Notes: a model not told the origin generated them from the sequence alone. A stretch of 64,000 nt of DNA from Hirschia baltica ATCC 49814 (GCF_000023785.1 NC_012982.1:1984001-2048000), one strand, 5' to 3'. Counted from the stretch's first letter, positions 20,239 to 37,629 are shown. A program made the numbers and translations.

Positions 20239-22056
20239 GTGACGATGGAATATGATAAACCTCAAAATCCAGAATTTCATCAATCTGATGAAAATGAAGA
20301 TTTAAAAGAACGCTTAGTCAGTCTTTCGACAGAGTTTCACAGACTCTTAGCTGAAATTATACATTATGACGACACTACATCCACACAAACTGTGCACATG
20401 TTTATGGCTCTGGACACATTACAGCGCAGTTTTGGCACAAATTCTAAAAAACTCATTCAAGCCCAACAAGATTTAGCACAACGCCTTGCAAATGCAGCAA
20501 AAATCACTCTAGACCAAGACACAAATGCCCTTCAGGAAAACAATCATTCTGAAGTACAACGTATTGAAAACTCTATGTTTTCAGATGATCTTTGGCAAAA
20601 ATATCCCTTGTTTGACTTTCTCAGTCAGTCCTATCTTGTCTGTACAGAATGGTTGAGAGATCTAATTACTCAGGCTGAAAATCTATCTGATTCCGAAAGA
20701 CAAGAAATTCAATACTATTTGCATCAATTGATGACCTCTCTTTCACCGGCAAATAATTTTTTCACAAACCCGGTCGCCATTCAAAAATTTGTTGAAACAA
20801 AAGGCCGTTCACTCGAAAAAGGGCTTGAGAATTTAATTCAAGATTATGACAGTGATTACAAACACTTAAACATCAGCCAAAGTGATATGAATGCATTTGA
20901 AATTGGCAAGCATGTCGCCACCACCAAAGGCCAGATAGTCTTTAAAAACGAGCTGATCGAACTCATTCGTTTCGATGCATCTCAAGGTGAGGTTTATGAA
21001 CGGCCCCTTTTGATTTTTCCACCTTGGATCAACAAATATTATGTTCTTGATTTACAAGCAAAAAATTCACTTATTGCATGGTTACGCGACCAAGGATTTA
21101 CGGTGTATGTCATTTCTTGGCGCAATGGCGATAACGTCACCCGCGACCTCAATTGGGACGATTATGCAGGACTAGGCGGATTAGCTGCAATCGAATATGT
21201 TTATGAAGCGCACAAAACTGCCATTAATATCGCCGGATATTGCATTGGTGGCACAATGCTTTCAACGCTATCTGCATATCTATTTAAGAAAAAAGACCAG
21301 CGTATCAACAGCTTAACATTTATGTCAGCTCAAACTGACTTTTCTCAAGCTGGCATGATGAATGTCGTGGTTAGCGAAAAAACATTTTCCGACACTGCCG
21401 CCGCAATAGTCAAAAATAAAGGCCTAATGCCCGGTGAACTTATGTCGGATGGGTTCAACACATTACGGCCTCAAAGGCTTATCTGGCAGTGCGTTGAAAA
21501 CAACTATCTTCTGGGAAATGACGTAAAGCCATTCGATTTATTATTTTGGAATGGTGACCAAACCAATATTCCCGGTCCTCTTCACCTTACTTACTTGCAA
21601 AATTTTTATCTAGAGAATCAACTCCCTAAAGGTGAATTTACGATTTTTGACGAGAAAGTTTCACTTTCAGATGTTACCTGCCCAGTCTTTATTCACGCTG
21701 CCGCAGGCGATCACATTGCGCCTTATGAATCAGTCTACAAAGGCAGGCACCTATTTGGAGGACCGACAAAATTCATCCTCGCAGAATCAGGGCATATTGC
21801 AGGCGTCGTGAACCCTCCTATCAATAATAAATATGGCCACTGGAGCGGCGGAACGCCTACTTTAAAAACGGGTGCGGAATGGAAGGCATCAGCAAAGTAC
21901 CAAAAACGCAGCTGGTGGCCCGCTTTGGCCGAATGGTTATCCCAACACTCAGGCGAGAAAACAGCTCCTCCCCAAACTATTCCAGGTGCACCTCCAGCAC
22001 CCGGCGAATATGTCAGAACCAAATTAGCGGATATTCACCAATGGCGAAAAAGTTAA
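20239..22056 (+). CDS. phaC: class I polyhydroxyalkanoate synthase
   Basis: Polymerises (R)-3-hydroxyacyl-CoA into PHA storage granules. At 605 aa it matches class I PhaC. The lipase-like box GYCIGG places the nucleophile at Cys335, with Asp491 (in AAGDHIAP) and His519 (in ESGHIAGVVNPP) completing the catalytic triad, at spacings close to those of known class I enzymes. The N-terminal ~200 residues are the variable region, here acidic and Gln-rich. The frame opens with GTG 20239, and ATG 20245 is an equally possible start because neither has a clear Shine-Dalgarno. No phaA, phaB or phasin gene is adjacent. Confidence 0.95.
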   Translation: MTMEYDKPQNPEFHQSDENEDLKERLVSLSTEFHRLLAEIIHYDDTTSTQTVHMFMALDTLQRSFGTNSKKLIQAQQDLAQRLANAAKITLDQDTNALQENNHSEVQRIENSMFSDDLWQKYPLFDFLSQSYLVCTEWLRDLITQAENLSDSERQEIQYYLHQLMTSLSPANNFFTNPVAIQKFVETKGRSLEKGLENLIQDYDSDYKHLNISQSDMNAFEIGKHVATTKGQIVFKNELIELIRFDASQGEVYERPLLIFPPWINKYYVLDLQAKNSLIAWLRDQGFTVYVISWRNGDNVTRDLNWDDYAGLGGLAAIEYVYEAHKTAINIAGYCIGGTMLSTLSAYLFKKKDQRINSLTFMSAQTDFSQAGMMNVVVSEKTFSDTAAAIVKNKGLMPGELMSDGFNTLRPQRLIWQCVENNYLLGNDVKPFDLLFWNGDQTNIPGPLHLTYLQNFYLENQLPKGEFTIFDEKVSLSDVTCPVFIHAAAGDHIAPYESVYKGRHLFGGPTKFILAESGHIAGVVNPPINNKYGHWSGGTPTLKTGAEWKASAKYQKRSWWPALAEWLSQHSGEKTAPPQTIPGAPPAPGEYVRTKLADIHQWRKS

Positions 22057-22144
22057 TGCTGAAATCCCGCCTCATGCATTGAACGCTTTGAGAATCCTCA
22101 TTGCAGGCGTACAAGCACTTCGCCACATAGAGGATGGGAAAGCT

Positions 22145-22720
22145 ATGTCTAAGATTAGGTTCACACTTGAGCACCTAAAGCCTCATTTAACGACAAGTTT
22201 TCTTATCTGTTTTGCATTCCTGCTCAGTTATGCATCTGCCCATTTTGTTGCCCTGCAAAGTAGTCAAATCTCTGCTAAACAGGAGATTGAAACGGATGCA
22301 GTGCTTTTGAATGCTGCATTAGAAAAAACTGACGCTGACTTACAAGACCTTATCGAATGGATAGATTCGCAAGTGCAAATGCAACGCTACCCTGCTGAAA
22401 AATTGTATTTTTTAGCCGATTCCGAACGCAACCGAATCACTGGTAATTTAAAGGCTTGGCCTGAACACGCCCAACCTTACAATGGTTGGCATCAATTTAA
22501 TGGATCTGAGACAGGTATTACAATTGGTCCATCGTATGCGCGAGTTTCTTCCATTAATATTGATGAGACAACAAAACCATACAAATTACTTATCGGACGC
22601 CAAACCCCTTCTACGCCGTTTGTTTTTCAGAAAATCTGGCCAGTATTTTTATCTTTGGCACTTATTTTTGGAATTTGTGGTGGATTTATTTTTCAAGCTC
22701 AAAAACCAAACAAGGATTAA
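22145..22720 (+). CDS. stand-alone membrane sensor module resembling histidine-kinase N-termini
   Basis: A 191-residue membrane protein with TM1 at about residues 17-37, a periplasmic domain of ~125 residues, TM2 at about 163-183 and only a short basic cytoplasmic tail (QAQKPNKD). The extracytoplasmic part has KLYFLADSERNRITGNLKAWP, an ITIGPSYARVS stretch and LLIGRQT, a pattern I associate with sensor domains of alphaproteobacterial histidine kinases, but HAMP, DHp and ATPase domains are absent and the 125 nt downstream cannot hold them. ATG 22145, with GGGA just upstream, is preferred over an earlier frame start at 22079. It follows phaC by 88 nt on the same strand. Confidence 0.7.
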   Translation: MSKIRFTLEHLKPHLTTSFLICFAFLLSYASAHFVALQSSQISAKQEIETDAVLLNAALEKTDADLQDLIEWIDSQVQMQRYPAEKLYFLADSERNRITGNLKAWPEHAQPYNGWHQFNGSETGITIGPSYARVSSINIDETTKPYKLLIGRQTPSTPFVFQKIWPVFLSLALIFGICGGFIFQAQKPNKD

Positions 22721-22845: not shown

Positions 22846-23646
22846 ATGTCCAGCATTGATCAATACTTCAAAGACTGGGCTAGCAAAGTAATTTTATCCT
22901 CGGATGACGCTCCGCTCATATTTGTATCCGGCGCACAGGGAATTGGTAAATCAACAGCGATGAATGCAATCGCAAATGCTTTTGATAACCAAATAGCCAT
23001 TCTGGGAATTGACGACTTCTATCTCACAAAAGCTGAACGCCAAGCCTTAGCAAAGGACACATCCCCCCTTTTTGAGACTCGCGGCCCTCCGGGTACGCAT
23101 GATCTTGTATTATTGAACAAAAAAATTGACGAATTACAGTCAACAGATTCTGCATCTATAACGAAAATTCCATCATTTGACAAAATTACAGATGATCGCA
23201 AATCAGAGAAGAATGACCATATTTTCAATGGAAAAGCCAAAGCCATAATTGTTGAAGGCTGGCTAGTTGGTGCAAATGCTGAACCAGACAGCGTCACTGA
23301 ATCTCCTATGAATGAAATTGAAAACACCGAATCAGCATTAAATTGGCGCAAATACCAAGAAGACCAATTAAGTGGCCCGTACGCAAAATTATGGAATCGT
23401 TCACCACATTTTTTTCATTTGAACGCCCCAAGTTTCGAAACTGTTTTAAATTGGCGAATAGAACAAGAAGAAACCACACGAGGACTTCATAAAGGAGAGC
23501 TTCCGGAGGAAATACGCGACTGGGTTAGAAGCTTTATCCTTTATTATGAAAGGATCACTCGCCGTATGCTAGACGGAAAAAAAATGTCAGGTGCTCAATT
23601 GTTTGTAGACAAAAACAGAACCGTCATCAAATTCGAGGAAAGGTAG
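22846..23646 (+). CDS. glycerate kinase (P-loop, D-glycerate 3-kinase type)
   Basis: A 266-residue P-loop kinase of the phosphoribulokinase/uridine-kinase-like fold, resembling plant and fungal D-glycerate 3-kinases. Walker A is GAQGIGKS at residues 29-36, followed by the substrate-site IDDFYLTKAERQ, the RGPPGTHD block near residue 84 and IVEGWLVG with the catalytic acid. It would phosphorylate D-glycerate to 3-phosphoglycerate. Its stop is 1 nt before the start of the phosphatase gene, and the operon continues with the synthase. This fits recycling of the glycerate released by a glucosylglycerate phosphorylase. GGAG precedes the ATG at a good distance. Confidence 0.85.
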   Translation: MSSIDQYFKDWASKVILSSDDAPLIFVSGAQGIGKSTAMNAIANAFDNQIAILGIDDFYLTKAERQALAKDTSPLFETRGPPGTHDLVLLNKKIDELQSTDSASITKIPSFDKITDDRKSEKNDHIFNGKAKAIIVEGWLVGANAEPDSVTESPMNEIENTESALNWRKYQEDQLSGPYAKLWNRSPHFFHLNAPSFETVLNWRIEQEETTRGLHKGELPEEIRDWVRSFILYYERITRRMLDGKKMSGAQLFVDKNRTVIKFEER

Positions 23647-23647
23647 A

Positions 23648-24493
23648 ATGCCCAACCTTATCGTTTTTACTGATTTGGACGGTACTTTACTCGATCATTC
23701 AAACTATAGCTATGTTTCAGCTAAGCCTGCTTTGATTGCACTTAAAGAGCTTCAAATACCTCTAATTCTTGCCAGTTCAAAAACATCCGTTGAGATCAAT
23801 TCACTACGTGAAGAAATTGGTTTCAGTGATTGTCCTGCCATTGTTGAAAATGGTGCCGGTCTACTTGCCCCAGGGCAAACCAGTTTTGAAACGCAAGATG
23901 CATCCGATTATACACGGCTTACACAAATCATAGCCAATGCCCCGGAAAAACTTCGCCAATTCTATAAAGGCTTTAATGACTGGTCCATTGAAGAACTAGT
24001 GGAAATTACAGGCCTGCCCCGTGAGAGTGCCTTCAACGCTGCTAAACGCCAATTTTCTGAACCTGGCCTATGGACTGGGACAGACGAAATGAAAGAAGCA
24101 TTCTCCGAATATTTATCTCAAAACGGTGTAAGTTACCGCCATGGTGGCCGCTTCATGACTTTGTCCTTTGGTGCAACAAAAGGCCAGCGCATAGAAGAAA
24201 TCTGCCTTCGATACACAAAACCTGACAAACAGATTATTTCTCTGTCTTTAGGAGATGCTCCAAACGACGTCGAAATGCTGCTAGCTACAGACTATGGTGT
24301 TATTATCTCTAATGAGCATTCAGTTGGCATTCCCGAGCTACCTGAAGAATCTAATGGCAAAATTATACGTACGACTAAAACTGGGCCAGCTGGTTGGAAT
24401 GATGCCGTGCTTGACTTCATCTCCAAACATTCAGGCTCTAACCCCCAAATAAAAAACACCCCAAAGACCGAAAGCGAGAAAGACATTGGCTGA
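23648..24493 (+). CDS. glucosyl/mannosyl-3-phosphoglycerate phosphatase (HAD-IIB)
   Basis: A 281-residue HAD-IIB phosphatase of the MPGP family. Motif I is FTDLDGTLLD with Asp9 and Asp11, motif II is in LASSKTSVEI, and motif IV is LSLGDAPNDVEMLL, with the cap domain containing the family's VENGAGLL and the GGRFMTLSFGATKGQ lysine region. It removes the phosphate from glucosyl- or mannosyl-3-phosphoglycerate to give the free glycoside. Because the next gene is a glucosyl-type synthase, glucosyl-3-phosphoglycerate is the expected substrate. It overlaps the synthase start by 8 nt and follows the kinase by 1 nt, so translation of all three is probably coupled. Confidence 0.85.
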   Translation: MPNLIVFTDLDGTLLDHSNYSYVSAKPALIALKELQIPLILASSKTSVEINSLREEIGFSDCPAIVENGAGLLAPGQTSFETQDASDYTRLTQIIANAPEKLRQFYKGFNDWSIEELVEITGLPRESAFNAAKRQFSEPGLWTGTDEMKEAFSEYLSQNGVSYRHGGRFMTLSFGATKGQRIEEICLRYTKPDKQIISLSLGDAPNDVEMLLATDYGVIISNEHSVGIPELPEESNGKIIRTTKTGPAGWNDAVLDFISKHSGSNPQIKNTPKTESEKDIG

Positions 24494-25709
24494 TTTTCAT
24501 CAAAACGGACACGTCGCAACGCTCCATGATCTACGCCGCGTGAATCCTGAGACAATGGAACGCGAATTAGAACAGTTTGCTGAAACGCGTAAAATCACAC
24601 TTATTCTGCCATCTTTATATTCAGAATTACAAGGTGAAGCACTCGGCAAAATCATTGATGAGTTGAGTTCTGCAAAATTTATCAACAGGATCGTAATTGG
24701 TCTTGATCGGGCAAATGAAGCCGAATATCGCCATGCAAAAGAATTCTTCTCGCGATTACCTCAAGAGCATGTCGTTTTATGGAATGACGGTCCTCGTTTA
24801 AAGGACGTTGATTTACGATTAGCTGAAATGGGACTTTCACCAATTGAACCAGGAAAAGGACGTAATGTCTGGTTTTGTATTGGACACACTCTTTCACGTG
24901 GAGATAGCGACATTGTTGCCCTTCATGATTGTGATATCGTCACATACACTAAGGAGATGCTGGTTAAGCTGCTATACCCAGTTGCAAACCCTAGCTTCCC
25001 TTACCTGCTTTCAAAAGGTTTCTACCCAAGAATTGCCGATGGTAAGTTCAACGGGCGCGTCAGCCGTCTTCTCGTAACTCCCATACTTATCGCTCTCTCA
25101 AAAGTTATTGGGGAACGTGATTATCTGGACTACTTATCTGCGTTTAGATATCCTCTCGCTGGTGAGTTTGCCATGCGCACGTCAATTCTTTCCGACATGC
25201 GTATCCCGTCCGATTGGGGACTGGAGATTGGTGTTTTATCTGAGGCTTGGCGAAATCTAGCTCCCAAAACCACTTGTCAGGTGGAAATATCTGATGCTTA
25301 TGATCACAAGCATCAACCGCTGTCTGAAGAAGATGCGTCAACCGGCCTTTCTCGAATGTCGATTGATATATGCAAAGCTCTGTATCGCAAGCTAGCGGCC
25401 GATGGCACAGTTTTCACTATGGAAACATTCCGCAGCCTGAAAGCAACCTACTACCGTCTCGCTCTGGACCTGATCGAGAATTATTACAATGATGCGATTA
25501 TGAATGGTCTTCACGTAGACCGTCACGCTGCTGAAAAATCAGTTGAGTTATTTGCTTCTAACATCATGGAAGCTGGTGAAATATTCCTTGAAAACCCAAT
25601 GGAAACACCTTTCATTCCCAATTGGAGCAGGGTGCACGCAGCAGACCAAGACCTCATGCGTGTGATGTCAGAATCAATTATGCAAGATAATGAAGACTAC
25701 CAACCCTAA
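24486..25709 (+). CDS. gpgS: glucosyl-3-phosphoglycerate synthase (GT81-like)
   Basis: A retaining glycosyltransferase of GT-A fold, 407 aa, that transfers glucose from a nucleotide sugar to D-3-phosphoglycerate. The metal-binding triad Asp148-Cys-Asp150 in VALHDCDIV corresponds to the DxD motif, and ITLILPSLYSE with GKGRNVWFCIG near residue 130 form the nucleotide-sugar pocket. The acceptor-side block is FRYPLAGEFAMR, followed by PSDWGLEIGVL and DHKHQPLS, all recognisable GpgS landmarks. The frame starts with TTG inside the phosphatase gene (8-nt overlap). A strong terminator follows at 25729, which ends the operon and faces the convergent GH13_18 gene. Confidence 0.88.
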   Translation: MADFHQNGHVATLHDLRRVNPETMERELEQFAETRKITLILPSLYSELQGEALGKIIDELSSAKFINRIVIGLDRANEAEYRHAKEFFSRLPQEHVVLWNDGPRLKDVDLRLAEMGLSPIEPGKGRNVWFCIGHTLSRGDSDIVALHDCDIVTYTKEMLVKLLYPVANPSFPYLLSKGFYPRIADGKFNGRVSRLLVTPILIALSKVIGERDYLDYLSAFRYPLAGEFAMRTSILSDMRIPSDWGLEIGVLSEAWRNLAPKTTCQVEISDAYDHKHQPLSEEDASTGLSRMSIDICKALYRKLAADGTVFTMETFRSLKATYYRLALDLIENYYNDAIMNGLHVDRHAAEKSVELFASNIMEAGEIFLENPMETPFIPNWSRVHAADQDLMRVMSESIMQDNEDYQP

Positions 25710-25728
25710 GCTAAGCCACGCAGAGTCC

Positions 25729-25755
25729 GCCCCGCTATAATATGCGGGGCTTTTT
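25729..25755 (+). terminator. intrinsic terminator of the glycerate kinase-phosphatase-gpgS operon
   Basis: GCCCCGC (25729-25735) pairs perfectly with GCGGGGC (25744-25750) across an 8-nt AT loop, followed directly by TTTTT. It lies 20 nt past the gpgS stop and just before the stop of the convergent gene. Confidence 0.9.
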
Positions 25756-25756
25756 C

Positions 25757-27508
25757 CTATTTTGAACGATTGGTTATCCACCGACACTGATATGGCGCAA
25801 AAGTGATTTCAGATGTGTGCTCGTTCACTTTTTCTCCAGATAGTAAATCAAACCAGTCATGTCCACCAATCAGATTGATCGATACAGCTGGAATGGTCAG
25901 CTCTCTATCTGTTACATTATGCAATGCGAATATTGATTGCGAACGGTCATAGCTTTGACGCCAGAAACCAAAAATATCATCCCCAAGCTGCATGGTAAAT
26001 TGAGTAGCGTTTGGATGAAATGCCTCTTGTTTACGGCGGATCTGAATACGGGCTGTCATTTCTGATAATACACGTGCATGAGAGCTATTTTCATCGTCAA
26101 GATAAGCTCGCAAATCAGGATAATTCCAGCGCCGTCTATTAATTGCGCGATTTATACCCGTCTTTTCAACACCAGCCATGTGATTGTGCGTTCCAATCAA
26201 TGAATGGATGTAGAAAGCTGGAATTCCTTCCAGTGCCATAACAATAGACTGACTGCACAAGAAACGTTGAAGCTGAAGATCATCCTCACCTTTGAGCGTC
26301 CCCTTCAATGCATCGAAAAACGTGACGTTCAACTCATAAGGTTTCTGACCACCATCTGGCGTCGAGCGCATGGAAACCAAGCCACCAAATGATTTTACTG
26401 TTTCAATAACATCATTGATTTCTTCTTCATTTAGCAAGCCTTCAGCCGGTCTCATTCCTATACCATCATGAGATGCTGAGAAATTTAGATAAGCACACCC
26501 CATTTGCGCAGGTGGCATCGCCATTTGCCATTGGTTTAAATGACGTGAAGACCCACTCAGCAAAGCCTGCAAAATCAATGGCGGTAGAGAAAAATTGTAA
26601 ACTGCATGCGCTTCATTCCTATTTCCAAAATAGGATAGGTTTTCTGTGTTTGGCACATTCGTTTCTGTCAGAAGGATCACGTCTTCTTTGGCAAAATCCA
26701 ACAACAAACGCATGAGCTGAACGATTGCATGAGTTTGAGGAAGATGAATGCAATTCGTGCCAATTTCTTTCCAGATAAATGCAACAGCATCCAGCCTGAT
26801 TATTCTAACACCATTATCGACATGCAGGCGCATTATCCGCAAAAATTCCAGCAGAACTTCAGGATTGGTAAAATCAACATCAACTTGATCGTGGCTAAAT
26901 GTGCACCAAACGTGCTTACTACCTGAAGGAGTTTGCACTTCCCGCAACAATTCATTGGTACGCGGACGGACAACCTCACTCAAATCATCATCAGGACGCG
27001 CCTCAAAGAAAAATTTGTCATAAGGCTCATGACCTTGCCGATAGTCGTTAAACCACTTGCTTTGGCTAGATACGTGGTTCAACACTAAGTCTGACATCAG
27101 TTTAAAACGCTTTCCAATACGTTTTATATCTTCCCACTCTCCAAGCTCACTATTGACTGAACGATAGTCAGTTACCGCAAAACCATCGTCTGATGTAAAT
27201 GGGAAAAAAGGTAAAATGTGTACGCTAGTTATAGTGTCCCCTAAATAGCGCCTTAAAAAATCCTGTAATAAATCTAACGGCTTATGCTTCCCGTCTTTTA
27301 TCGAATTTCCATAGGTGATAATCACAGCATCATCTTCGGACCACAGTCCGATATTGCTTGGCTGACGTTGATCAGTGCGTATTAAATCACTGTCTTCCCA
27401 ATACGCTTCGATAATCTGCTCGATAAGGGAATCGCAGTCATGCTCAGGATAAATGAAGCTCACTAATTCAGTCAGCTTAGTCTTAAATGCTACAGAAATA
27501 TCCAGCAT
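25757..27508 (-). CDS. GH13 subfamily 18 phosphorylase, probably glucosylglycerate phosphorylase
   Basis: A sucrose-phosphorylase-like alpha-amylase-family enzyme of 583 aa. The TIM-barrel residues are intact: nucleophile Asp240 in IIRLDAVAF, acid/base Glu282 in LLTETNVPN, and transition-state Asp348 in SASHDGIG. GH13_18 enzymes cleave alpha-glucosides with phosphate to give alpha-glucose-1-phosphate. This one is longer than typical sucrose phosphorylases (~490-505 aa), and its convergent neighbours are gpgS, its phosphatase and a glycerate kinase. Glucosylglycerate plus phosphate giving Glc-1-P plus glycerate is therefore the most economical assignment, with sucrose as the alternative. ATG 27508, preceded by GGCGGAG, is preferred over a TTG at 27574 with no ribosome-binding site. 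Confidence 0.85.
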   Translation of the reverse strand: MLDISVAFKTKLTELVSFIYPEHDCDSLIEQIIEAYWEDSDLIRTDQRQPSNIGLWSEDDAVIITYGNSIKDGKHKPLDLLQDFLRRYLGDTITSVHILPFFPFTSDDGFAVTDYRSVNSELGEWEDIKRIGKRFKLMSDLVLNHVSSQSKWFNDYRQGHEPYDKFFFEARPDDDLSEVVRPRTNELLREVQTPSGSKHVWCTFSHDQVDVDFTNPEVLLEFLRIMRLHVDNGVRIIRLDAVAFIWKEIGTNCIHLPQTHAIVQLMRLLLDFAKEDVILLTETNVPNTENLSYFGNRNEAHAVYNFSLPPLILQALLSGSSRHLNQWQMAMPPAQMGCAYLNFSASHDGIGMRPAEGLLNEEEINDVIETVKSFGGLVSMRSTPDGGQKPYELNVTFFDALKGTLKGEDDLQLQRFLCSQSIVMALEGIPAFYIHSLIGTHNHMAGVEKTGINRAINRRRWNYPDLRAYLDDENSSHARVLSEMTARIQIRRKQEAFHPNATQFTMQLGDDIFGFWRQSYDRSQSIFALHNVTDRELTIPAVSINLIGGHDWFDLLSGEKVNEHTSEITFAPYQCRWITNRSK

Positions 27509-27660
27509 AGAATGCTCCGCCTTATGCACGCGCGTCTTAATTGAAAAATTGCGCCCTCGTCCTACTGACATCAATAGATGGCAATAACAGTCAATAATTT
27601 AATAGACGACTGCCAGAAGATTGAACGATGGTTTGAGTTTATATTGAAATTACGTACATA

Positions 27661-27695
27661 AAGAAGGCAGACAATCAATATCACCTGCCTTTCTT
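27661..27695 (-). terminator. possible terminator after the alpha-glucosidase gene
   Basis: On the minus strand AGAAAGGCAG pairs with CTGCCTTCTTT across an AT-rich loop, 11 nt past the glucosidase stop. The T-run is interrupted, so termination may be partial, letting some transcription continue into the GH13_18 gene. Confidence 0.5.
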
Positions 27696-27705
27696 ATTTA
27701 TCGGG

Positions 27706-29364
27706 TTATTTAGTAAGTTTTGCCCAATACGCAGAGTAAGCTGGTAAATCATGAGGCACTTCCCAGCCATCACTCATACCGTCATGACTAAACATGACCT
27801 TCCAACCCTTTCCAAGATGGTGATTCCATTTTGAATGTTTATCGCTGAAATTGTAGACACACATAATGTGCTCTTCGTCATGTCGTCGCATAAACGCCAA
27901 TACAGAGGAATTATGCGTATCCATAAATGTCATCGAGCCGAGTCGAAGCGCCAAAGTTCTCTTTCTTACACCCATCGCATATTTGGTGAAGCGCAGCATG
28001 CAGGGAATATCATCAGTTTGAGTATCAACAGCTAATTCAGCTTGTTTTGGATCGACTGGTATCCAAGGTGTCCCTGTTGTGAAGCCCGCATGATCTGCAT
28101 TTTTATTCCACGGCATCGGCACCCGCGCACCATCTCTCCCCAACGTCCTTGGCCAATTCGCAATAGCTTCTGGATCTTTCAGATGTTCAAAAGCAACCTC
28201 ACCCTGAGGTAATCCCAATTCCTCACCTTGATAGATAAACGCGTTCCCACGCAGTGAAAGCAGCAACATCATATAATTACGCGCTGCGAACCAACGGTTT
28301 TCTGGCTTTGCCCACCGACTAACCGCACGTGGTGCATCATGGTTTTCAAAAGCCCAAGACGGCCAACCTTCGCCGTCTTCACCTATCCAATTTCCAAGAG
28401 TTCCTCGAACCTTGTCCGCAGAAACGGGAGGCCCATCAAGAAAATCAAAACTATATGCAGAGTTCAAACGTTTATCACCATACGTGTAATCGCGCATTTC
28501 CGATAAAGCTTCATCTCCTCCAATTTCGGCAACAGTAAAAATCTCGCCGTGCTTATCAAGCTCTTTACGAATACGTTCCATAAAAAGCGGGATTTCTGGT
28601 TGTGACTGATTGTGGATACGCTTTTGCATATCAAAAGGACGCGTAACACGAGACCTTTCCAAATTTGAAGGAGGGTTATCTGTCATCGCACGGTTATGCA
28701 TAGCAAAGTTTATGGCATCCATACGAAAACCATCAACACCGCGATCTATCCAGAAACGCATAATTTCCAAAATGGCATTCTGCACATCCAAATTATGCAC
28801 ATTCAATTGCGGTTGTTCTTTTAGAAAATTGTGCATGAAATACTGTTGGCGGCGTGCATCCCATTCCCATGCTGGTCCACCAAAAACAGATTGCCAATTA
28901 TTGGGCGGCATTCCATCAATTTTTGGATCAGCCCATACATACCAGTCAGATTTTACATTCTTTCTGCTTTGGCGGCTCTCTTCAAACCAAGCGTGTTGAT
29001 CCGAAGTATGAGCATAAACTTGGTCAATAATAATCTTCAGCCCACGACTATGAGCCTGTTCAACCAAGTCATCAAAATCATCTAAGGTTCCAAATGTGGG
29101 ATCAATCTCTTTATAGTCAGAAATATCGTACCCATAGTCAGCCTGTGGAGACTTAAAAAACGGTGATAACCAGATGGCATCGACACCCAATGATGCAATA
29201 TGGTCCAATTTTTCAATACACCCTCTCAAATCTCCAATACCATCACCGTTGGAGTCGTAGAAGCTGCGCGGATAAATGTGATAAATAACAGCCCCTTTCC
29301 ACCAAGGAGCTTTGTCTGAGCTCTTATGTCCAAGTTCAATTTCTGAAGGGGTCACAATATTCAT
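27706..29364 (-). CDS. alpha-glucosidase, GH13 (oligo-1,6-glucosidase/GH13_23-like)
   Basis: A 552-residue retaining alpha-glucosidase that releases glucose from alpha-glucosides. It starts with the family-typical WWKGAVIYHIYPRSFYDSNG, carries a GIGDLRG calcium-site-like motif, the nucleophile in GVDGFRMDAINF, the acid/base Glu in FTVAEIGGDEAL, and the stabilising Asp in FENHDAPRAVSRW. No signal peptide is present, so it acts in the cytoplasm, most likely on maltodextrins released by GlgX and GlgP, though small alpha-glucosides such as glucosylglycerate are possible. It lies 96 nt after glgX on the same strand. Confidence 0.9.
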   Translation of the reverse strand: MNIVTPSEIELGHKSSDKAPWWKGAVIYHIYPRSFYDSNGDGIGDLRGCIEKLDHIASLGVDAIWLSPFFKSPQADYGYDISDYKEIDPTFGTLDDFDDLVEQAHSRGLKIIIDQVYAHTSDQHAWFEESRQSRKNVKSDWYVWADPKIDGMPPNNWQSVFGGPAWEWDARRQQYFMHNFLKEQPQLNVHNLDVQNAILEIMRFWIDRGVDGFRMDAINFAMHNRAMTDNPPSNLERSRVTRPFDMQKRIHNQSQPEIPLFMERIRKELDKHGEIFTVAEIGGDEALSEMRDYTYGDKRLNSAYSFDFLDGPPVSADKVRGTLGNWIGEDGEGWPSWAFENHDAPRAVSRWAKPENRWFAARNYMMLLLSLRGNAFIYQGEELGLPQGEVAFEHLKDPEAIANWPRTLGRDGARVPMPWNKNADHAGFTTGTPWIPVDPKQAELAVDTQTDDIPCMLRFTKYAMGVRKRTLALRLGSMTFMDTHNSSVLAFMRRHDEEHIMCVYNFSDKHSKWNHHLGKGWKVMFSHDGMSDGWEVPHDLPAYSAYWAKLTK

Positions 29365-29460: not shown

Positions 29461-31380
29461 TTAATAAAAAACGACGTTCACAGTCCGCGGACTTATGGTT
29501 TGGGTACTTCCACAACGAATAAATGTCTGATGACGATCAGTCCTGTTGAAAAGTATTAATGCATTTTTAGAGGTCAATTCCATAACAAACGCCCCCATAT
29601 CAGGCTTTTCCCAATCAAGAACAGTCATTTCTTCACCATCAAAGCGCCGCCAGACAACATCTTGCTCCGCCCAAAAGTGAACATCATCATGTAGACCTAG
29701 TTTTTTTCGAACTTCAGACAATTCTGAAACATGACGCTCAAGCTTCTTGTCCCGCTTTGACCAGTCTAACCAAGTAATCTCATTATCCTGAGCGTAAGCA
29801 TTATTATTACCTGATTGACTGCGTCCGAATTCGTCACCGGCTGTCAGCATAATACAACCTTTGGAAAGGAAAAGTGTCGATAATATCGCTTTTAAATCAA
29901 CACGCCTTTTATTCAAAACAGACTGATCGGCAGTATCGCCTTCTACGCCATTATTCCATGAAATATTATCATTGTGGCCGTCGCGATTATTCTCTCCATT
30001 TGCATAATTATGCTTGTCTTCAAATGCCACCAAGTCAGCGAGTGTAAATCCATCATGAGCGGCGACAAAATTCACAGAACGCGTCTTTGAAGGTTTATCC
30101 TCATCCAGATTTTGATAAACATCAGACGATCCACAAAGCCGCGTTGCAAATTTCCCAAGTGCATCGGCGTCACCTCGCCAAAAACGTCTTACATCGTCAC
30201 GATAAGCATCATTCCATTCGAGGAAACGTGACGGAAAATTACCAAGCTGATAACCACCAGGTCCGATATCCCAAGGCTCTGCAATTAGAACGCAATCATT
30301 GAGCACATCATCTGCCAACATCTCCTGAATGAGACTGGCTTTGGCGTTGAAATGGCCCCCATTCGCATCTTCACGGCCCAGTGCTGGCCCTAAATCAAAC
30401 CGATACCCGTCTATACCTGCGAATTTCACGAAGTACCGCATGGAATCAAGTATCAAACGGCGTACAACAGGATGGCTACAATCAATGGAATTGCCGCATC
30501 CAGTATCATTTATCAAATGTCCAGGCTGACCATCATGTGTTCTAAAATATGATTTGGCATCTAAGCCTCTAAAACTCAGTGTTGGTCCGTAGACGTCGCT
30601 TTCTCCATTATGATTAAAAACAACATCTAGAAACACACTAATATCCGCGTCGTGCAACGCTTTCACCGCAGCTTTTAATTCCTCTAAGCCACCCGGCGCT
30701 AATTTGGGATCAAGTGCAAAATAGCTAACAGGATTATACCCCCATCCATTGTGCAGGTTCAAAGGTGCAAGATGACGTTCATCTATCCATGCATTGATTG
30801 GCATAAGCTCCACAGCATCGACACCAACCCGTTTTAAATGCTTAATCACAGATGGATGCGTAAGGGCAGCAAGAGTGCCTTTTTTAGTCTTTGGTATTTT
30901 GGGGTTTAGTTTTGAAAAACTATTGACCTGAAGCTCATAAATCAAACCGCCATCAGGAAACTTTTTATGAGCGTTTTCAACTTCAAGCGGAGGCACGCAA
31001 ACAACCGCTTTGGGCATCAATGCAGCTGTATCAATTTTTGCATCACGATGCGCCGCCAGATCCGCATGATATACGAAAGCTTGATTGATTTGGGTTGCAT
31101 AAGGATCCAAAAGCAATTTGTTTGGATCAAACCACAAACCATTTTCTGGGTCCCAGACACCATCAGCTCGATAGCCGTATAAACTTCCTTCGTCAGCATT
31201 TTCGATGAATGCTGACCAATACCCCTCTTCATCCTTTGTCATCAGAATGCGATCAGTTTCATGATCACCATCAAATAAGCAAACATGCATACTTGATGCT
31301 TCAGGAGACCATACGCAGAAACGCACCCCATTGGGAAGTAAACGCGATCCAAGGTGTAATTTTAGATCAGGGTTGATCAT
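29461..31380 (-). CDS. glgX: glycogen debranching enzyme GlgX
   Basis: Hydrolyses alpha-1,6 branch points of phosphorylase-limit glycogen. The 639-aa protein has an N-terminal CBM48-type domain (CVWSPEASSMHVCLFDGD) followed by the GH13 barrel: VVFNHNGESDV, the nucleophile in GIDGYRFDLGPALGRE, the acid/base Glu in VLIAEPWDIGPGGYQ, and AAHDGFTLADLV with the third acid. NYANGENNRDGHNDN is a GlgX/isoamylase hallmark. It begins 17 nt after the glgA stop, so it belongs to the glgP-glgB-glgA-glgX operon. Confidence 0.95.
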   Translation of the reverse strand: MINPDLKLHLGSRLLPNGVRFCVWSPEASSMHVCLFDGDHETDRILMTKDEEGYWSAFIENADEGSLYGYRADGVWDPENGLWFDPNKLLLDPYATQINQAFVYHADLAAHRDAKIDTAALMPKAVVCVPPLEVENAHKKFPDGGLIYELQVNSFSKLNPKIPKTKKGTLAALTHPSVIKHLKRVGVDAVELMPINAWIDERHLAPLNLHNGWGYNPVSYFALDPKLAPGGLEELKAAVKALHDADISVFLDVVFNHNGESDVYGPTLSFRGLDAKSYFRTHDGQPGHLINDTGCGNSIDCSHPVVRRLILDSMRYFVKFAGIDGYRFDLGPALGREDANGGHFNAKASLIQEMLADDVLNDCVLIAEPWDIGPGGYQLGNFPSRFLEWNDAYRDDVRRFWRGDADALGKFATRLCGSSDVYQNLDEDKPSKTRSVNFVAAHDGFTLADLVAFEDKHNYANGENNRDGHNDNISWNNGVEGDTADQSVLNKRRVDLKAILSTLFLSKGCIMLTAGDEFGRSQSGNNNAYAQDNEITWLDWSKRDKKLERHVSELSEVRKKLGLHDDVHFWAEQDVVWRRFDGEEMTVLDWEKPDMGAFVMELTSKNALILFNRTDRHQTFIRCGSTQTISPRTVNVVFY

Positions 31381-31397
31381 TGATTTTCTCTAAATCT

Positions 31398-32987
31398 CTA
31401 TAGAGCAGCTCGAATTGCTCGAGAAAGTGGCCGAAACGTTTTCTTGGCATCGTAATTTGCAATAACTTGACGATATAGATCTACATAGCGCGCTGCACTT
31501 CGTCCCCAAGAAAAGTCTGACCTCATACCGGCGCGCTGCATAGATTTCCAAGCAGTTTTGTCATTGTACAATTTTATCGTCCGAACGACAGCTTGTTTCA
31601 AATGAAATGGGTCAGGCGGGTAAAATTGCACACCAGTCGCACACCCAAGAGATACCGATGCTTCATTGGCGTCAATAATCGTGTCTGCAAGCCCGCCAAC
31701 ACGCGTAACCACTGGAACACACCCATAACGAAGCCCATACAATTGCGTCAGCCCACACGGCTCAAAACGCGATGGAATTAAGATTGCATCACCACCAGCC
31801 TGCATGCGATGGGCAATTGGCTCTTCATAGCCAACTTTGACTCCAATCCTGCCTGGGTGACGTTGCGATGCAGCAAGAAAACCACGTTCAATTGCATTAT
31901 CTCCCTGACCGAGCACCGCAAATTTTGCACCCATCGGAACCAGCTCATCCAACAGCTCGAGGAGCATATCTACGCCCTTTTGCCATGTCATGCGGGAGCA
32001 AATAACAAACAGAGGGTCTTCATCATGAAACAGGCCAAACTCTGTTTCCAGATCAAACCTGTTCTGACGCCTCATCTGATAATTACGTGCCGAATATTGT
32101 TTCGTAATATAAGGGTCTTCAGGCGGGTTCCAGACATCATCATCGATCCCATTCAAAATACCATATAGATCATTCTCACGATGATTAATTAGTCCATCCA
32201 GACCCATGCCATTTTCAGGGCGCCGAATTTCACGCGCATAAGTCGGACTAACAGTCGTAATTACATCAGCCGAACTTAGCCCTGCTTTCATATAGCCAAT
32301 GCCGCCATAATATTCGACGCCATTCATAGCCCAAGCTTTTTTAGGGAGACCAAGCTTTTTGAATATTTTAGCATCATACCTGCCTTGAAAAGCAAGGTTA
32401 TGAATCGTCATGATCCGAGGAATATTACCAAAGTTGGCGTATCGCACATATGCAAGCGACAACGCAGACTGCCAGTCATGCGCATGAATGACTTGCGGCT
32501 CCCACTCTTTCAACTTTCCAAGTGCAACGTCCGCAGCAGCTTTAGACAATGCCCCAAACCGTTGCCAATTATCTTCCCAGTCCGCACCATTTTCATCAAG
32601 ATAGGGCCCACCTGATCGATCAAAGAAATCAGGACAATCCAATACATAAATTTTATGGCCAGCTACTTCATCTGCCAAAATAGCAGCTTTGCTTCCAAAT
32701 AAGTTGTTGTAGGTTTTCACTACACGTGGATTTTCCAATTTACTCATCACCGAACGATATCCGGGAATGAATGAACGCACTTCCACGCCCTGATCTTTTA
32801 GTGCTAACGGCAGCGCACCAGTGACATCAGCCAAACCGCCGGTTTTGATCAAAGGATACAGTTCCGAAGTCACAGATAACACACGAATGGGACCACTCAT
32901 CCCACTATCAGATTTCTGCGTATTAATCTGCGACTCTAAAAAATCGAAACTTTCTTTTGTCTTCAAAGCTGGTGCGGCCACAATCAT
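31398..32987 (-). CDS. glgA: glycogen synthase GlgA (GT5)
   Basis: Transfers glucose from ADP-glucose to the non-reducing ends of glycogen. GT5 landmarks are the nucleotide-binding LIKTGGLADVTGALP and, in the C-terminal lobe, IPSRFEPCGLTQLYGLRYG with the catalytic glutamate. At 529 aa it is longer than the usual ~480 because about 33 residues precede the normal start of the family. An internal ATG (residue 30, MSGPIRVLS) is the conventional alternative. The upstream ATG overlaps the glgB stop in TAATG, which supports coupled translation from 32987. No ADP-glucose pyrophosphorylase gene (glgC) occurs in the window. Confidence 0.94.
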   Translation of the reverse strand: MIVAAPALKTKESFDFLESQINTQKSDSGMSGPIRVLSVTSELYPLIKTGGLADVTGALPLALKDQGVEVRSFIPGYRSVMSKLENPRVVKTYNNLFGSKAAILADEVAGHKIYVLDCPDFFDRSGGPYLDENGADWEDNWQRFGALSKAAADVALGKLKEWEPQVIHAHDWQSALSLAYVRYANFGNIPRIMTIHNLAFQGRYDAKIFKKLGLPKKAWAMNGVEYYGGIGYMKAGLSSADVITTVSPTYAREIRRPENGMGLDGLINHRENDLYGILNGIDDDVWNPPEDPYITKQYSARNYQMRRQNRFDLETEFGLFHDEDPLFVICSRMTWQKGVDMLLELLDELVPMGAKFAVLGQGDNAIERGFLAASQRHPGRIGVKVGYEEPIAHRMQAGGDAILIPSRFEPCGLTQLYGLRYGCVPVVTRVGGLADTIIDANEASVSLGCATGVQFYPPDPFHLKQAVVRTIKLYNDKTAWKSMQRAGMRSDFSWGRSAARYVDLYRQVIANYDAKKTFRPLSRAIRAAL

Positions 32988-35164
32988 TACGACTCCAGTT
33001 TTAAGATCAGCGTTCCTAGCGGCGGAATATTCAAATCGGCAATTCCATTTTGATCAGTTTGTATTTTACCCAAATTCCCCACCCCCGATCCTCCATAAGT
33101 ATGCGCATCTGTATTCAAAATTTCTTTCCAAATACCTGCATGAGGCAATTTAATTTTGTAACTATTGCGCACTATGGGTGTAAAATGACTAATTATTAGG
33201 ATTGTTGGCGCATCCGGTGCTTTTCTTTGCCACGCAAAAACTGAATCTGCCGCAGCATCCACAAGCACCCAATCAAAGCCTTCTCCTTCACAATCACGTG
33301 CATGCAGCGCAGGCTCAGACTTATAGATATTGTTCAGATCACGTACCAAGCTTTGTACACCTTGGTGCGGCCCATATTCGAGTAAATGCCAATCAAGAGA
33401 GCGTTTTTCACTCCACTCATCTCGTTGAGCAAACTCTTGCCCCATGAATAAAAGTTTCTTACCTGGATACCCCCACATAAAGGCAAAATAAGCGCGAAGA
33501 GTTGCAAATTTTTGCCAATCATCCCCCGCCATTTTATTCAGCAAGGATCCTTTGCCGTGCACAACTTCGTCATGGCTTAAAGGCAATACAAAATTTTCAG
33601 TAAAGGCATACATCAATCCAAATGTAATTTCATTGTGGTGATGTTGGCGATGAACTGGATCACGTGCGAGATAACGCAACGTGTCATTCATGAACCCCAT
33701 ATTCCATTTGAACCCAAAACCAAGCCCGCCTTCATGCACTGGATGAGAAACTTTAGGCCAAGAGGTAGATTCTTCAGCCATTGTCAAAATACCTGGATGA
33801 CGGCCGTAAACTTCCTTATTCATCAATTTTAGAAAATCGACAGCCTCTAGGTTTTCACGACCACCAAATTCATTTGGTATCCACTCACCCTGTTCCCGCG
33901 AATAATCCAAATATAACATCGACGCCACTGCATCAACGCGAAGACCATCAACATGAAAATGTTCAGCCCAAAACAAAGCATTGTTGACCAGATAGGACAC
34001 AACCTCTTTGCGACCAAAATTAAATATCGCGGTATTCCAGTCAGGGTGAAATCCTTTGCGTGGATCTTCATGCTCATAAAGGGCAGTCCCATCAAACCGA
34101 GAGAGACCATGAGCATCCGTTGGAAAATGCGCTGGCACCCAATCAATCAAGACACTTAAACCAGCTTTGTGTGCGCCTTCCACAAAACGCGCAAACCCGT
34201 CAGGGTCTCCAAAGCGTGCTGTGGGTGCATATAAGCCAGTCGTTTGATATCCCCAACTTGGATCGTATGGAAATTCACTGATTGGCAAAAATTCGATGTG
34301 CGTAAATCCCATATCTAAAACATATGGAATTAGTTGCTCCGCCATTTCATCCCAGCTTAAAAAGCCGCCATAGCCATTTTTGCGCCATGAACCTGGATGC
34401 ACTTCATAGATGGATATCGGCAATCTACGCGCATCCGCATCTGCCCAATATTTACGATGCTCATCATCATTCCATGTGCGTTCTGACGGACCTTTAACAA
34501 TAGAAGCAGTATTGGGCCTTAATTCTGATTTATAGGCAAAAGGGTCGGCTTTCAACGGAAGCGTATTTCCGTCTGGCCCTACGATCTCATATTTATACGC
34601 TGCACCATCACCAATGTCGGGTAAGAAGATTTCCCATATACCCGTGTCCACTCGTTTGCGCATTTGATTGCGGCGATTGTCCCATTTATTAAAATCCCCA
34701 ACGACAGATACGCGTTGAGCATTTGGGGCCCACACAGCAAAATGAACACCTTTAGCTCCTTCGTGTTCAATCACATGTGCGCCGAGTTTATCAAACAATC
34801 GCAAATGCGAGCCCTCTGAAAGATAATAATCATCCATCGGGCCAAGAACTGGACCAAAACTGTAGGCATCAGCTATTTCATATGTGCCGCCATTTTCATA
34901 TTTCGCCACATACCGAATGGGTTGACGTTTCTTCAATGCAACTGAGCCTTCAAAGAGGCCTGCATCATCAATTCTAGTCAACTCACCAACGCTTTTTCCT
35001 GCCAAAGTGTATGCTTCCACATGAATAGCATCGGGAAATAGCGCACGCGCAATAAACCGCTTCGTTTTATTGCCATTATTTTCAGGATGAACCCCCAAAA
35101 CAGAAAAGGGATCATTTTCCTGCGCAGAGATCAGTGCATGAATGCGGTCTGATCCTAGTGTCAT
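32987..35164 (-). CDS. glgB: 1,4-alpha-glucan branching enzyme
   Basis: Creates alpha-1,6 branches in glycogen by transferring short chains. At 725 aa it has the full arrangement: N-terminal beta domain (NDPFSVLGVHPE), CBM48 (GVHFAVWAPNAQRVSVVGDFN), GH13 barrel with nucleophile in FHVDGLRVDAVASML, acid/base Glu in ILTMAEESTSWP and LPLSHDEVVHGKGSLL, and a C-terminal all-beta domain. Both its ends overlap neighbours by one base (TAATG with glgP upstream and glgA downstream), a strong sign of translational coupling across the operon. Confidence 0.97.
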   Translation of the reverse strand: MTLGSDRIHALISAQENDPFSVLGVHPENNGNKTKRFIARALFPDAIHVEAYTLAGKSVGELTRIDDAGLFEGSVALKKRQPIRYVAKYENGGTYEIADAYSFGPVLGPMDDYYLSEGSHLRLFDKLGAHVIEHEGAKGVHFAVWAPNAQRVSVVGDFNKWDNRRNQMRKRVDTGIWEIFLPDIGDGAAYKYEIVGPDGNTLPLKADPFAYKSELRPNTASIVKGPSERTWNDDEHRKYWADADARRLPISIYEVHPGSWRKNGYGGFLSWDEMAEQLIPYVLDMGFTHIEFLPISEFPYDPSWGYQTTGLYAPTARFGDPDGFARFVEGAHKAGLSVLIDWVPAHFPTDAHGLSRFDGTALYEHEDPRKGFHPDWNTAIFNFGRKEVVSYLVNNALFWAEHFHVDGLRVDAVASMLYLDYSREQGEWIPNEFGGRENLEAVDFLKLMNKEVYGRHPGILTMAEESTSWPKVSHPVHEGGLGFGFKWNMGFMNDTLRYLARDPVHRQHHHNEITFGLMYAFTENFVLPLSHDEVVHGKGSLLNKMAGDDWQKFATLRAYFAFMWGYPGKKLLFMGQEFAQRDEWSEKRSLDWHLLEYGPHQGVQSLVRDLNNIYKSEPALHARDCEGEGFDWVLVDAAADSVFAWQRKAPDAPTILIISHFTPIVRNSYKIKLPHAGIWKEILNTDAHTYGGSGVGNLGKIQTDQNGIADLNIPPLGTLILKLES

Positions 35165-37629
35165 TAGAGGCCTACTTTCCAGATTTCTTCAGCATATTGC
35201 CTTATTGTTCTATCCGACGAAAACCAACCAGCATTAGCGGTATTTTTAATCGCCATTTTAGCCCAGAGTTTCTTATCTTTCCAGATTTCGTCAACACGTC
35301 GCTGCGCCAACGAATAACTATCAAAGTCCGCTGCGACCATAAACCAATCGTGCTCGACAATTCCATCAATAAGTCCAGAATATCTGAAAGTATCATCTGG
35401 TGAGAATGTACCAGTCTGGATTGCCGTAAGCGCCTGCTTCAGCTCTGGTGAATTAGCGATGATTTCTTTGGGGTCATAATTACCTTCACGTTTGGCCGCA
35501 ACTTCATCTGCAGTCATTCCGAATATAACTATATTGTCGTCACCGACATTTTCTTTAATCTCAACATTCGCACCATCTAGCGTACCGATAGTGATAGCGC
35601 CATTGACTTGGAATTTCATGTTTCCAGTACCTGAAGCTTCCATACCCGCTGTCGAAATTTGCTCAGAAAGGTCTGCAGCAGGAAATAATCTCTCTGCTTG
35701 CGAAACATTATAGTTTGGCACGAATACAACTTTCAACAGTCCCTGAACTGCTGGATCTTGATTGATAACCCGCGCAACGTCATTGGCAAGTTTGATGATC
35801 AGCTTGGCGTTGTGGTAGCTAGACGCCGCCTTACCACCAAAGATTTTCACCCGCGGTGCCCAGTCCTTTTCAGGGTGGGTACGAATTTGATCGTATAATG
35901 CAACGGCGTGAATAATGTTGAGCAATTGACGTTTATATTCATGGATCCGTTTGATCTGAATATCAAACATCGACGCAGGATCAATTTTCGCACCACAATA
36001 TGAAGCAAGGTGATTAGAAAGTTGAATTTTTTTCTCCAACTTCACAGCCATAAACTTTTCTTGAAACGCTGTATCATCCGCAAACTTATTCAAGTCGATA
36101 AGACGTTCCGCATCATCTTTAAATGCAGGTCCGATCGCCTCTTCAATCAAATTAGTAAGTTCAGGGTTACACTGCATCAACCAGCGCCGGAAAGTCACAC
36201 CATTTGTTTTGTTGTTGATGCGGTCCGGATAGAGTTTATGAAGATCTTTAAATACGGTTTGTTTCATCAATTCCGTATGTAGCGCCGAGACCCCATTGAC
36301 CTTATGAGAGCCAACAAAAGCCAGATTTCCCATTCTAACGCGGCGTTCGCCAGCTTCATCAATAAGTGAAATGGCAGATACAGCCGCATCGTCAAACCCT
36401 TTGGTTTTACGCGCAACTTTAAGAATGTGGGCATTGATAGCATATACAAGCTGCATGTGACGCGGCAATAAACGTTCAAACAATGGCACAGACCAGCTTT
36501 CCAAAGCTTCAGGCAGCAATGTGTGGTTTGTGTAAGAGAATGTTTCTCGCGCGATATCCCAAGCTTCTTCAAACTCAATATCATGCACATCAACGAGAAG
36601 ACGCACCAACTCCGCGACTCCAACAGCTGGATGAGTATCATTTAGCTGAATTGACGCACGCTCATGCAGAGTACGAATGTCTCCAAAATCCTGAATATGA
36701 CGGCGCACAATGTCTTGCAAAGATGCTGAGGTGAAGAAGTATTCCTGACGCAAACGCAAAGACTGCCCAGCAACGGATGAATCTGCAGGGTATAAAACAC
36801 GCGTCAAAGAACTCGCCCTATTGCTGTCGCGCAGGGCTCCCTGATGCTCTCCGGCATTAAATTGATCGAGCAAAATCGGATCAATAGGCTGTGCACTCCA
36901 CAAGCGAAGTGTATTCACCTGATTGCCGCGCCAACCAACAATTGGCGTATCATATGGCGTCGCAATAACACGCTCTTGCGGGTTCCATGTCATTTTACCC
37001 GGTGTACCTAGCGTTTCCTCAGCTGCTTCAACCACTCCGGCGAAGCCAACTTCGTAAGAACACTCTCGACGTTCAAATTCCCATGGGTTTCCGTGTGCGA
37101 GCCATGTTTCAGGAAGCTCAACTTGCCAGCCATCCGAAATTTCCTGACGGAACATACCGTTGATATAGCGAATTCCATACCCATAGGCTGGTACACCAAT
37201 GGTTGCCATGCTTTCCATGAAACACGCAGCCAAGCGACCAAGCCCACCATTACCTAACGCCGCATCAGGCTCTAATTCAGCGACAACATTTAGATCTACC
37301 CCAAGGCTTCCTAGTGCTTCTTGCATCTGCTCAAGCATTTCCATGTTGGAAACGGCATCACGCATCAAGCGACCAATAAGAAATTCAAGGCTGAGATAAT
37401 AAACCCGCTTACCTTTATCTTCATGAAACTCTTGTTTCGTTCGAATCCATGCATCAATAATACGGTCACGAATAACGAGAATGACCGCATGCAACCAGTC
37501 ATGCTTGTGTGCATTGGCAGCATCCTTACCAACACGGTAAGTCAGACGTTCAACAATTTCTGTAGCAAGTATCGAAGAGTCAAATTTGCGAGGCTCGGGA
37601 CGTGGCAGTCCCTCTGACTTCAGTTTCAT
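35164..37629 (-). CDS. glgP: glycogen/starch phosphorylase
   Basis: Releases glucose-1-phosphate from glycogen ends. The 821-residue enzyme has full family length. The PLP-binding signature EASGTGNMKFQVNGA is clear near residue 665, as are the glycine-rich ALGNGGLGRLAACFMES and YGIRYINGMFRQ near 130-160 and SIQLNDTHPAVGVAEL. It is the first gene of the operon, with a 226-nt upstream gap to argC that should hold the promoter. Together with the GH13_18 phosphorylase it makes this region a double source of Glc-1-P. Confidence 0.97.
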   Translation of the reverse strand: MKLKSEGLPRPEPRKFDSSILATEIVERLTYRVGKDAANAHKHDWLHAVILVIRDRIIDAWIRTKQEFHEDKGKRVYYLSLEFLIGRLMRDAVSNMEMLEQMQEALGSLGVDLNVVAELEPDAALGNGGLGRLAACFMESMATIGVPAYGYGIRYINGMFRQEISDGWQVELPETWLAHGNPWEFERRECSYEVGFAGVVEAAEETLGTPGKMTWNPQERVIATPYDTPIVGWRGNQVNTLRLWSAQPIDPILLDQFNAGEHQGALRDSNRASSLTRVLYPADSSVAGQSLRLRQEYFFTSASLQDIVRRHIQDFGDIRTLHERASIQLNDTHPAVGVAELVRLLVDVHDIEFEEAWDIARETFSYTNHTLLPEALESWSVPLFERLLPRHMQLVYAINAHILKVARKTKGFDDAAVSAISLIDEAGERRVRMGNLAFVGSHKVNGVSALHTELMKQTVFKDLHKLYPDRINNKTNGVTFRRWLMQCNPELTNLIEEAIGPAFKDDAERLIDLNKFADDTAFQEKFMAVKLEKKIQLSNHLASYCGAKIDPASMFDIQIKRIHEYKRQLLNIIHAVALYDQIRTHPEKDWAPRVKIFGGKAASSYHNAKLIIKLANDVARVINQDPAVQGLLKVVFVPNYNVSQAERLFPAADLSEQISTAGMEASGTGNMKFQVNGAITIGTLDGANVEIKENVGDDNIVIFGMTADEVAAKREGNYDPKEIIANSPELKQALTAIQTGTFSPDDTFRYSGLIDGIVEHDWFMVAADFDSYSLAQRRVDEIWKDKKLWAKMAIKNTANAGWFSSDRTIRQYAEEIWKVGL

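Follow-up and report, generated by a model that had tools for sequence, protein, structure and literature searches.

A predicted glucosylglycerate synthesis-and-recycling gene set adjoining a glycogen operon without glgC in Hirschia baltica ATCC 49814

Clusters of glucosylglycerate phosphorylase (GGaP; GH13_18, EC 2.4.1.352) genes have been described for E. coli YcjM, Meiothermus silvanus and Spirochaeta thermophila (Franceus, Pinel, Desmet 2017). The specificity of GGaP was first inferred from its neighbours, namely glycerate kinase, gpgS and gpgP (PMC7178133), and two sequence diagnostics have been published for the enzyme, a (T/S)ETN motif and a loop-A Glu where the other clades have Gln (PMC7178133; PMC6720575). 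The reading of PYELN and TETN together with a GT81 enzyme has been published for the marine alphaproteobacterium Rhodalgimonas (PMC10608839), and a Prochlorococcus glucosylglycerate recycling operon giving G1P and 3PG has been drawn together with glycogen metabolism (PMC11631117). Here we analysed a stretch of 64,000 nucleotides from Hirschia baltica ATCC 49814 (the window), in which the enzyme signatures are identical to those of the described GGaP clusters. In comparison to these clusters, the synthesis genes of the window are convergent to ggaP, as in the Roseobacteraceae, and a glycogen operon is adjoining.

Roseobacteraceae and Paracoccaceae carry gpgP-gpgS convergent with ggaP in a layout like that of the window, and their GGaP shows 60-71% identity; however, a GLYK-type kinase could not be detected within 10 kb at these loci, whereas the window has one. 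The glyK-gpgP-gpgS-ggaP operons of Alteromonas, Salinimonas and Cellvibrio have all four gene families in common with the window, the kinase included, but their four genes are co-directional while ggaP of the window is present on the opposite strand. The window layout mixes features of the Roseobacter and Alteromonas versions and is a clean alphaproteobacterial full set. The adjoining glycogen genes follow the order of the alphaproteobacterial glgP-glgB-glgC-glgA-glgX operon, as present in a genome of the same genus (G001, which is without ggaP and in which an alpha-glucosidase gene also follows glgX) and in one of the same order (G042). Unlike these two, the window and its sister species (G002) have lost glgC from the glgB/glgA junction (31398-35164 in the window), where glgB and glgA abut with an overlap or nearly so.

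Coordinates of the features are presented in Table 1. The original prediction had described a tight plus-strand operon of kinase, phosphatase and synthase genes facing a GH13_18 gene, and this layout could be reproduced in all its parts: the three ORFs are located where they had been placed (plus-strand span 22846-25709), glyK and gpgP are separated by 1 nt, gpgP and gpgS overlap by 8 nt, ggaP is convergent with them on the minus strand, and the glycogen operon with the GH13 alpha-glucosidase gene adjoins on that same strand. The longest GH13_18 ORF, read from the first possible start, covers 25757-27574 (minus strand). Because the similarity begins at residue 20 for the sister-species protein and at residue 30 for E. 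coli YcjM, Met23 (ATG at 27508) is likely to be the start, in agreement with the boundary given earlier. The hairpin behind gpgS has the most G-C pairs among all the scanned sites (z -2.1) and, with its U-tract, makes a good intrinsic terminator of glyK-gpgP-gpgS. Just upstream of the glucosylglycerate operon, as in the sister species, lies a gene for a class I PHA synthase (20239-22056), so that three carbon-storage/osmolyte systems are neighbours. An ORF of 213 aa with no Pfam or NCBIfam matches (22079-22720) separates this synthase gene from glyK; it was not seen at this position in the sister species, where the gap is ~200 nt.

Table 1. Features of the predicted glucosylglycerate locus and the adjoining glycogen operon (positions counted from the first letter of the window)
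Feature	Position	Strand	Description
glyK	22846-23646	+	D-glycerate 3-kinase, plant/yeast GLYK-Tda10 type, 266 aa
gpgP	23648-24493	+	glucosyl/mannosyl-3-phosphoglycerate phosphatase, HAD-IIB, 281 aa
gpgS	24486-25709	+	glucosyl-3-phosphoglycerate synthase, GT81 type, 407 aa, TTG start
predicted intrinsic terminator, end of glyK-gpgP-gpgS	25729-25750	+	7 G-C pairs then TTTTTCC
ggaP	25757-27508	-	GH13_18 glucosylglycerate phosphorylase; start = Met23 of longest ORF
terminator-like hairpin, alpha-glucosidase gene/ggaP gap	27664-27691	-	hairpin scan
GH13 alpha-glucosidase gene	27706-29364	-	Pfam PF00128 415 bits + Malt_amylase_C; after glgX
glgP-glgB-glgA-glgX glycogen operon	29461-37629	-	NCBIfam
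glgX	29461-31380	-	NCBIfam
glgA	31398-32987	-	NCBIfam
glgB	32987-35164	-	NCBIfam
glgP	35164-37629	-	NCBIfam

Gene identity, layout, diagnostic motifs and conservation were read from the sequence, and on these grounds glyK, gpgP, gpgS and ggaP very probably represent the known glucosylglycerate synthesis-and-recycling pathway. All four enzyme assignments made in the original prediction and its synthesis and recycling logic are supported, and the phosphorylase passes both of the published sequence tests. The GH13_18 enzyme, GpgS, GpgP and the kinase would have the activities of their families, and their regulation and a role under salt or nitrogen stress are predicted. In the proposed mechanism, Glc-1-P supplied through GlgP or a phosphoglucomutase would be activated, probably by GalU, GpgS would join the glucose of NDP-glucose to 3-phosphoglycerate, and GpgP would dephosphorylate the product to glucosylglycerate, a compatible solute that carries a charge. 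For recycling, GGaP would convert glucosylglycerate and phosphate to glucose-1-phosphate and D-glycerate, and the kinase would turn the glycerate into 3-phosphoglycerate; the glucose-1-phosphate may then enter glycolysis through phosphoglucomutase or be converted to UDP-glucose by GalU. The synthesis genes and the kinase would be expressed as a single operon with its own terminator, while the convergent ggaP, located downstream of the glycogen operon, probably has its own promoter. The description of this pathway as a 'closed, reversible' cycle has to be given up. Of the steps of the cycle, none but that of the phosphorylase can readily run backwards, and one NTP and one ATP are used per turn. 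As GpgP is a phosphatase, the loop is one-way and, consuming NTP and ATP, must be controlled rather than 'reversible'.

For the conservation of the gene set, 80 ggaP loci were taken from named genomes and neighbours were counted within 10 kb. gpgS is present in 65 of the 80 loci, gpgP in 63 and glyK in 17, and by these counts the gene set is widespread. The synthase gene is located downstream of ggaP and convergent with it, like in the window, in 37 of the 80 loci, and the co-directional glyK-gpgP-gpgS-ggaP order occurs in 17. Distribution of ggaP itself is patchy (3/61 genomes of close relatives and 7/241 genomes of the class). No gpgS is present up to 10 kb away, or up to the end of the contig, at 15 of the 80 loci, five of them cyanobacterial, in agreement with the literature, where accumulation of glucosylglycerate is not assumed for many carriers of ggaP. 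The gene set of the window is therefore not new but an ordinary member of a known pathway.

It had also been claimed that the gene set is built into a glycogen locus. Adjacency of the glg operon and ggaP is common to the window and the sister species, but clear glycogen-operon genes are found within 10 kb of ggaP in none of the 80 other loci; glgA and glgP were never seen at that distance, and the lone glgX/glgB match is a 25-27% match to a GH13-like protein. Moreover, a terminator-like hairpin divides ggaP from the glycogen operon in the window, and the sister species has a hairpin with a T-run at the same position between the alpha-glucosidase gene and ggaP, which is clearer than that of the window. 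Presence of the hairpin in both species makes separate transcription of ggaP likely, and the 'built into' description is not supported.

The associated claim of osmolyte/glycogen exchange is supported in part. The route from glycogen through Glc-1-P and UDP-Glc to glucosylglycerate is encoded, while the return would lack GlgC: as the complete genome is without this enzyme, reverse flow into glycogen would have to occur without the standard ADP-glucose step, and conversion of glucosylglycerate to glycogen would need a GlgA donor other than ADP-glucose made by GlgC. A two-way exchange with the glycogen operon as a partner of the pathway has in its favour the adjacency seen in two sister species and the presence in the genome of GlgP, GalU and a PGM/PMM-family protein in a frame of 544 aa. 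Conversion of an osmolyte to a storage polymer has been suggested for Synechococcus (Baran 2017, as cited in PMC11009771), and the Aeromonas hydrophila GlgA, working without a true GlgC, is able to take UDP-glucose as its donor (PMC4301808). Against it are the absence of GlgC, the hairpin, the missing linkage in the 80 other ggaP genomes, and a genome of the same family (G020) which has the convergent ggaP and gpgS-gpgP-glyK set and is without GlgA. We therefore consider two-way exchange doubtful, and exchange with glycogen in general may only tentatively be suggested.

No GlgC could be identified in the complete genome, where TIGR02091 scores 38.6 at best (cut-off 424.9), and the classical GlgC-GlgA glycogen pathway, which needs GlgC to be encoded, is accordingly not complete. 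None of the six NTP-transferase proteins of the genome is GlgC: four are annotated as GalU, RmlA, glucose-1-phosphate cytidylyltransferase and MurU, GlmU was assigned by its window sequence, and the sixth does not match the GlgC model. RmlA, a dTDP-glucose pyrophosphorylase, is located on the 84-kb second contig of the window's own genome (G000:C2:7214-7924). Sucrose synthase was considered as a source of ADP-glucose, and a genome search gave zero matches over the cut-off. A second route of the trehalose/GlgE type was likewise rejected, as the genes at G000:C1:2.63-2.65 Mb code for amylases, a paralogous alpha-glucosidase and a protein resembling sugar symporters. GlgA retains the KTGGL and FEPCGLTQ motifs. 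Compared to E. coli GlgA, the protein has an N-terminal extension of ~33 residues, which is also present in the sister species.

Of the 241 genomes of the class, 33 bear GlgA, and 11 of these are without GlgC, so the absence of glgC is notable but not specific. Loss of GlgC is not a hallmark of ggaP genomes either, as only the window's own genome has ggaP among the 11 without GlgC. The missing glgC beside the pathway is the only mildly surprising element of the locus. The lineage may have lost glgC with GlgA now sharing the donor of GpgS (e.g. UDP-glucose from GalU), although we regard this as rather improbable. If it were true, glycogen and glucosylglycerate would be made from one nucleotide-sugar pool and linked through Glc-1-P by GGaP and GlgP, and the shared donor pool would replace the allosteric control point at GlgC.

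Families of the enzymes were confirmed with NCBIfam, Pfam and PDB searches. In a phmmer search against the PDB, the matches of the glyK product, for which there is no informative Pfam match, are confined to D-glycerate kinases and yeast YGR205W (1odf). With the family profile, 6ckg (1.6e-41), 7xpc (9e-33) and 1odf (2e-30) come before uridine kinase (2.3e-10), so that D-glycerate 3-kinases top the kinase profile ranking by at least 20 orders of magnitude in E-value. Neither uridine kinase nor phosphoribulokinase comes as close to the protein as the solved GLYK, and the P-loop G.QG.GKST of the protein is invariant. Kinases of the GLYK-Tda10 family give 3-phosphoglycerate, the acceptor of GpgS.

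The gpgP product scores above the cut-offs of NF001216 (450.4 bits, cut-off 353) and TIGR01486 (192.7, cut-off 164.75), and its PDB matches are MPGP (3ztw and 1xvi). Phosphatases of the GPG/MPG family take both glucosyl and mannosyl substrates. The synthase matches NF040724 (GpgS_Meth) with 345 bits, which is under the 700-bit equivalog cut-off; it is 58-69% identical to gpgS beside ggaP in other genomes, and the conserved donor-site residues PGKG (122-125) and DCD (148-150) argue for its homology to GpgS. Best PDB matches of the synthase are the mycobacterial GpgS structures, while 3f1y, a mannosyl-3-phosphoglycerate synthase (MpgS) of GT81, is far weaker. Since GT81 holds this MpgS as well, membership of the family does not prove which sugar donor is used, nor is the donor provable in silico, and the name MPGP of the phosphatase family would also be compatible with mannosylglycerate as the product of the operon. 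However, GpgS structures outscore 3f1y, the synthase has zero Pfam matches and thus no match to a GT55-type MpgS, and the family of the partner phosphorylase is glucosyl-specific. Mannosylglycerate is therefore a very improbable product, and the glucosylglycerate reading is favoured.

The phosphorylase is assigned on its motifs and a tree. All three GH13_18 catalytic acids are intact, as had been predicted, namely D262 (RLDA), E304 (TETN) and D370 (SHDG). The protein has TETN at 303-306 on the acid/base strand and PYELN at 412-416 in loop A, with Glu in place of Gln. This motif pair is present in 84 of the 84 ggaP sequences compared (the window, two relatives, YcjM and the 80 genome loci), whereas two sucrose phosphorylases (SP) and one glucosylglycerol phosphorylase (GGoP) are without it and carry PE[IV]H and IYQ. 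Over 573 aa the window protein shares 38% identity with E. coli YcjM, which is annotated as glucosylglycerate phosphorylase. In a tree with characterised GH13_18 members it is placed with YcjM and the other ggaP products, apart from SP and GGoP, with a branch support of 100, although the branches to YcjM and the outgroup are long. Its best NCBIfam name is sucrose phosphorylase (TIGR03852), with a score of 207 bits below the cut-off of 334, and its PDB matches are sucrose and glucosylglycerol phosphorylases, sucrose phosphorylases being the best. That the enzyme is a sucrose, sucrose-6-phosphate (SPP) or glucosylglycerol phosphorylase with the gpg genes as incidental neighbours, for which these matches and the action of the GH13_18 enzyme XpGP on both sucrose and glycerate (PMC11009771) might speak, is extremely improbable, as the protein has TETN and PYE in place of the SP, SPP and GGoP loop-A motifs (for SP, N(L/V)D(I/L/V)YQ), no sucrose synthase scores above the cut-off in the genome, and gpgS and gpgP stand close to ggaP in most genomes.

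The role of GGaP in vivo is still described as unproven (PMC7178133). With its small genome and all the parts in one 15-kb block, Hirschia baltica would be a convenient test system for this role. Loss of glgC beside the pathway raises a further testable question, namely which donor is used by GlgA.
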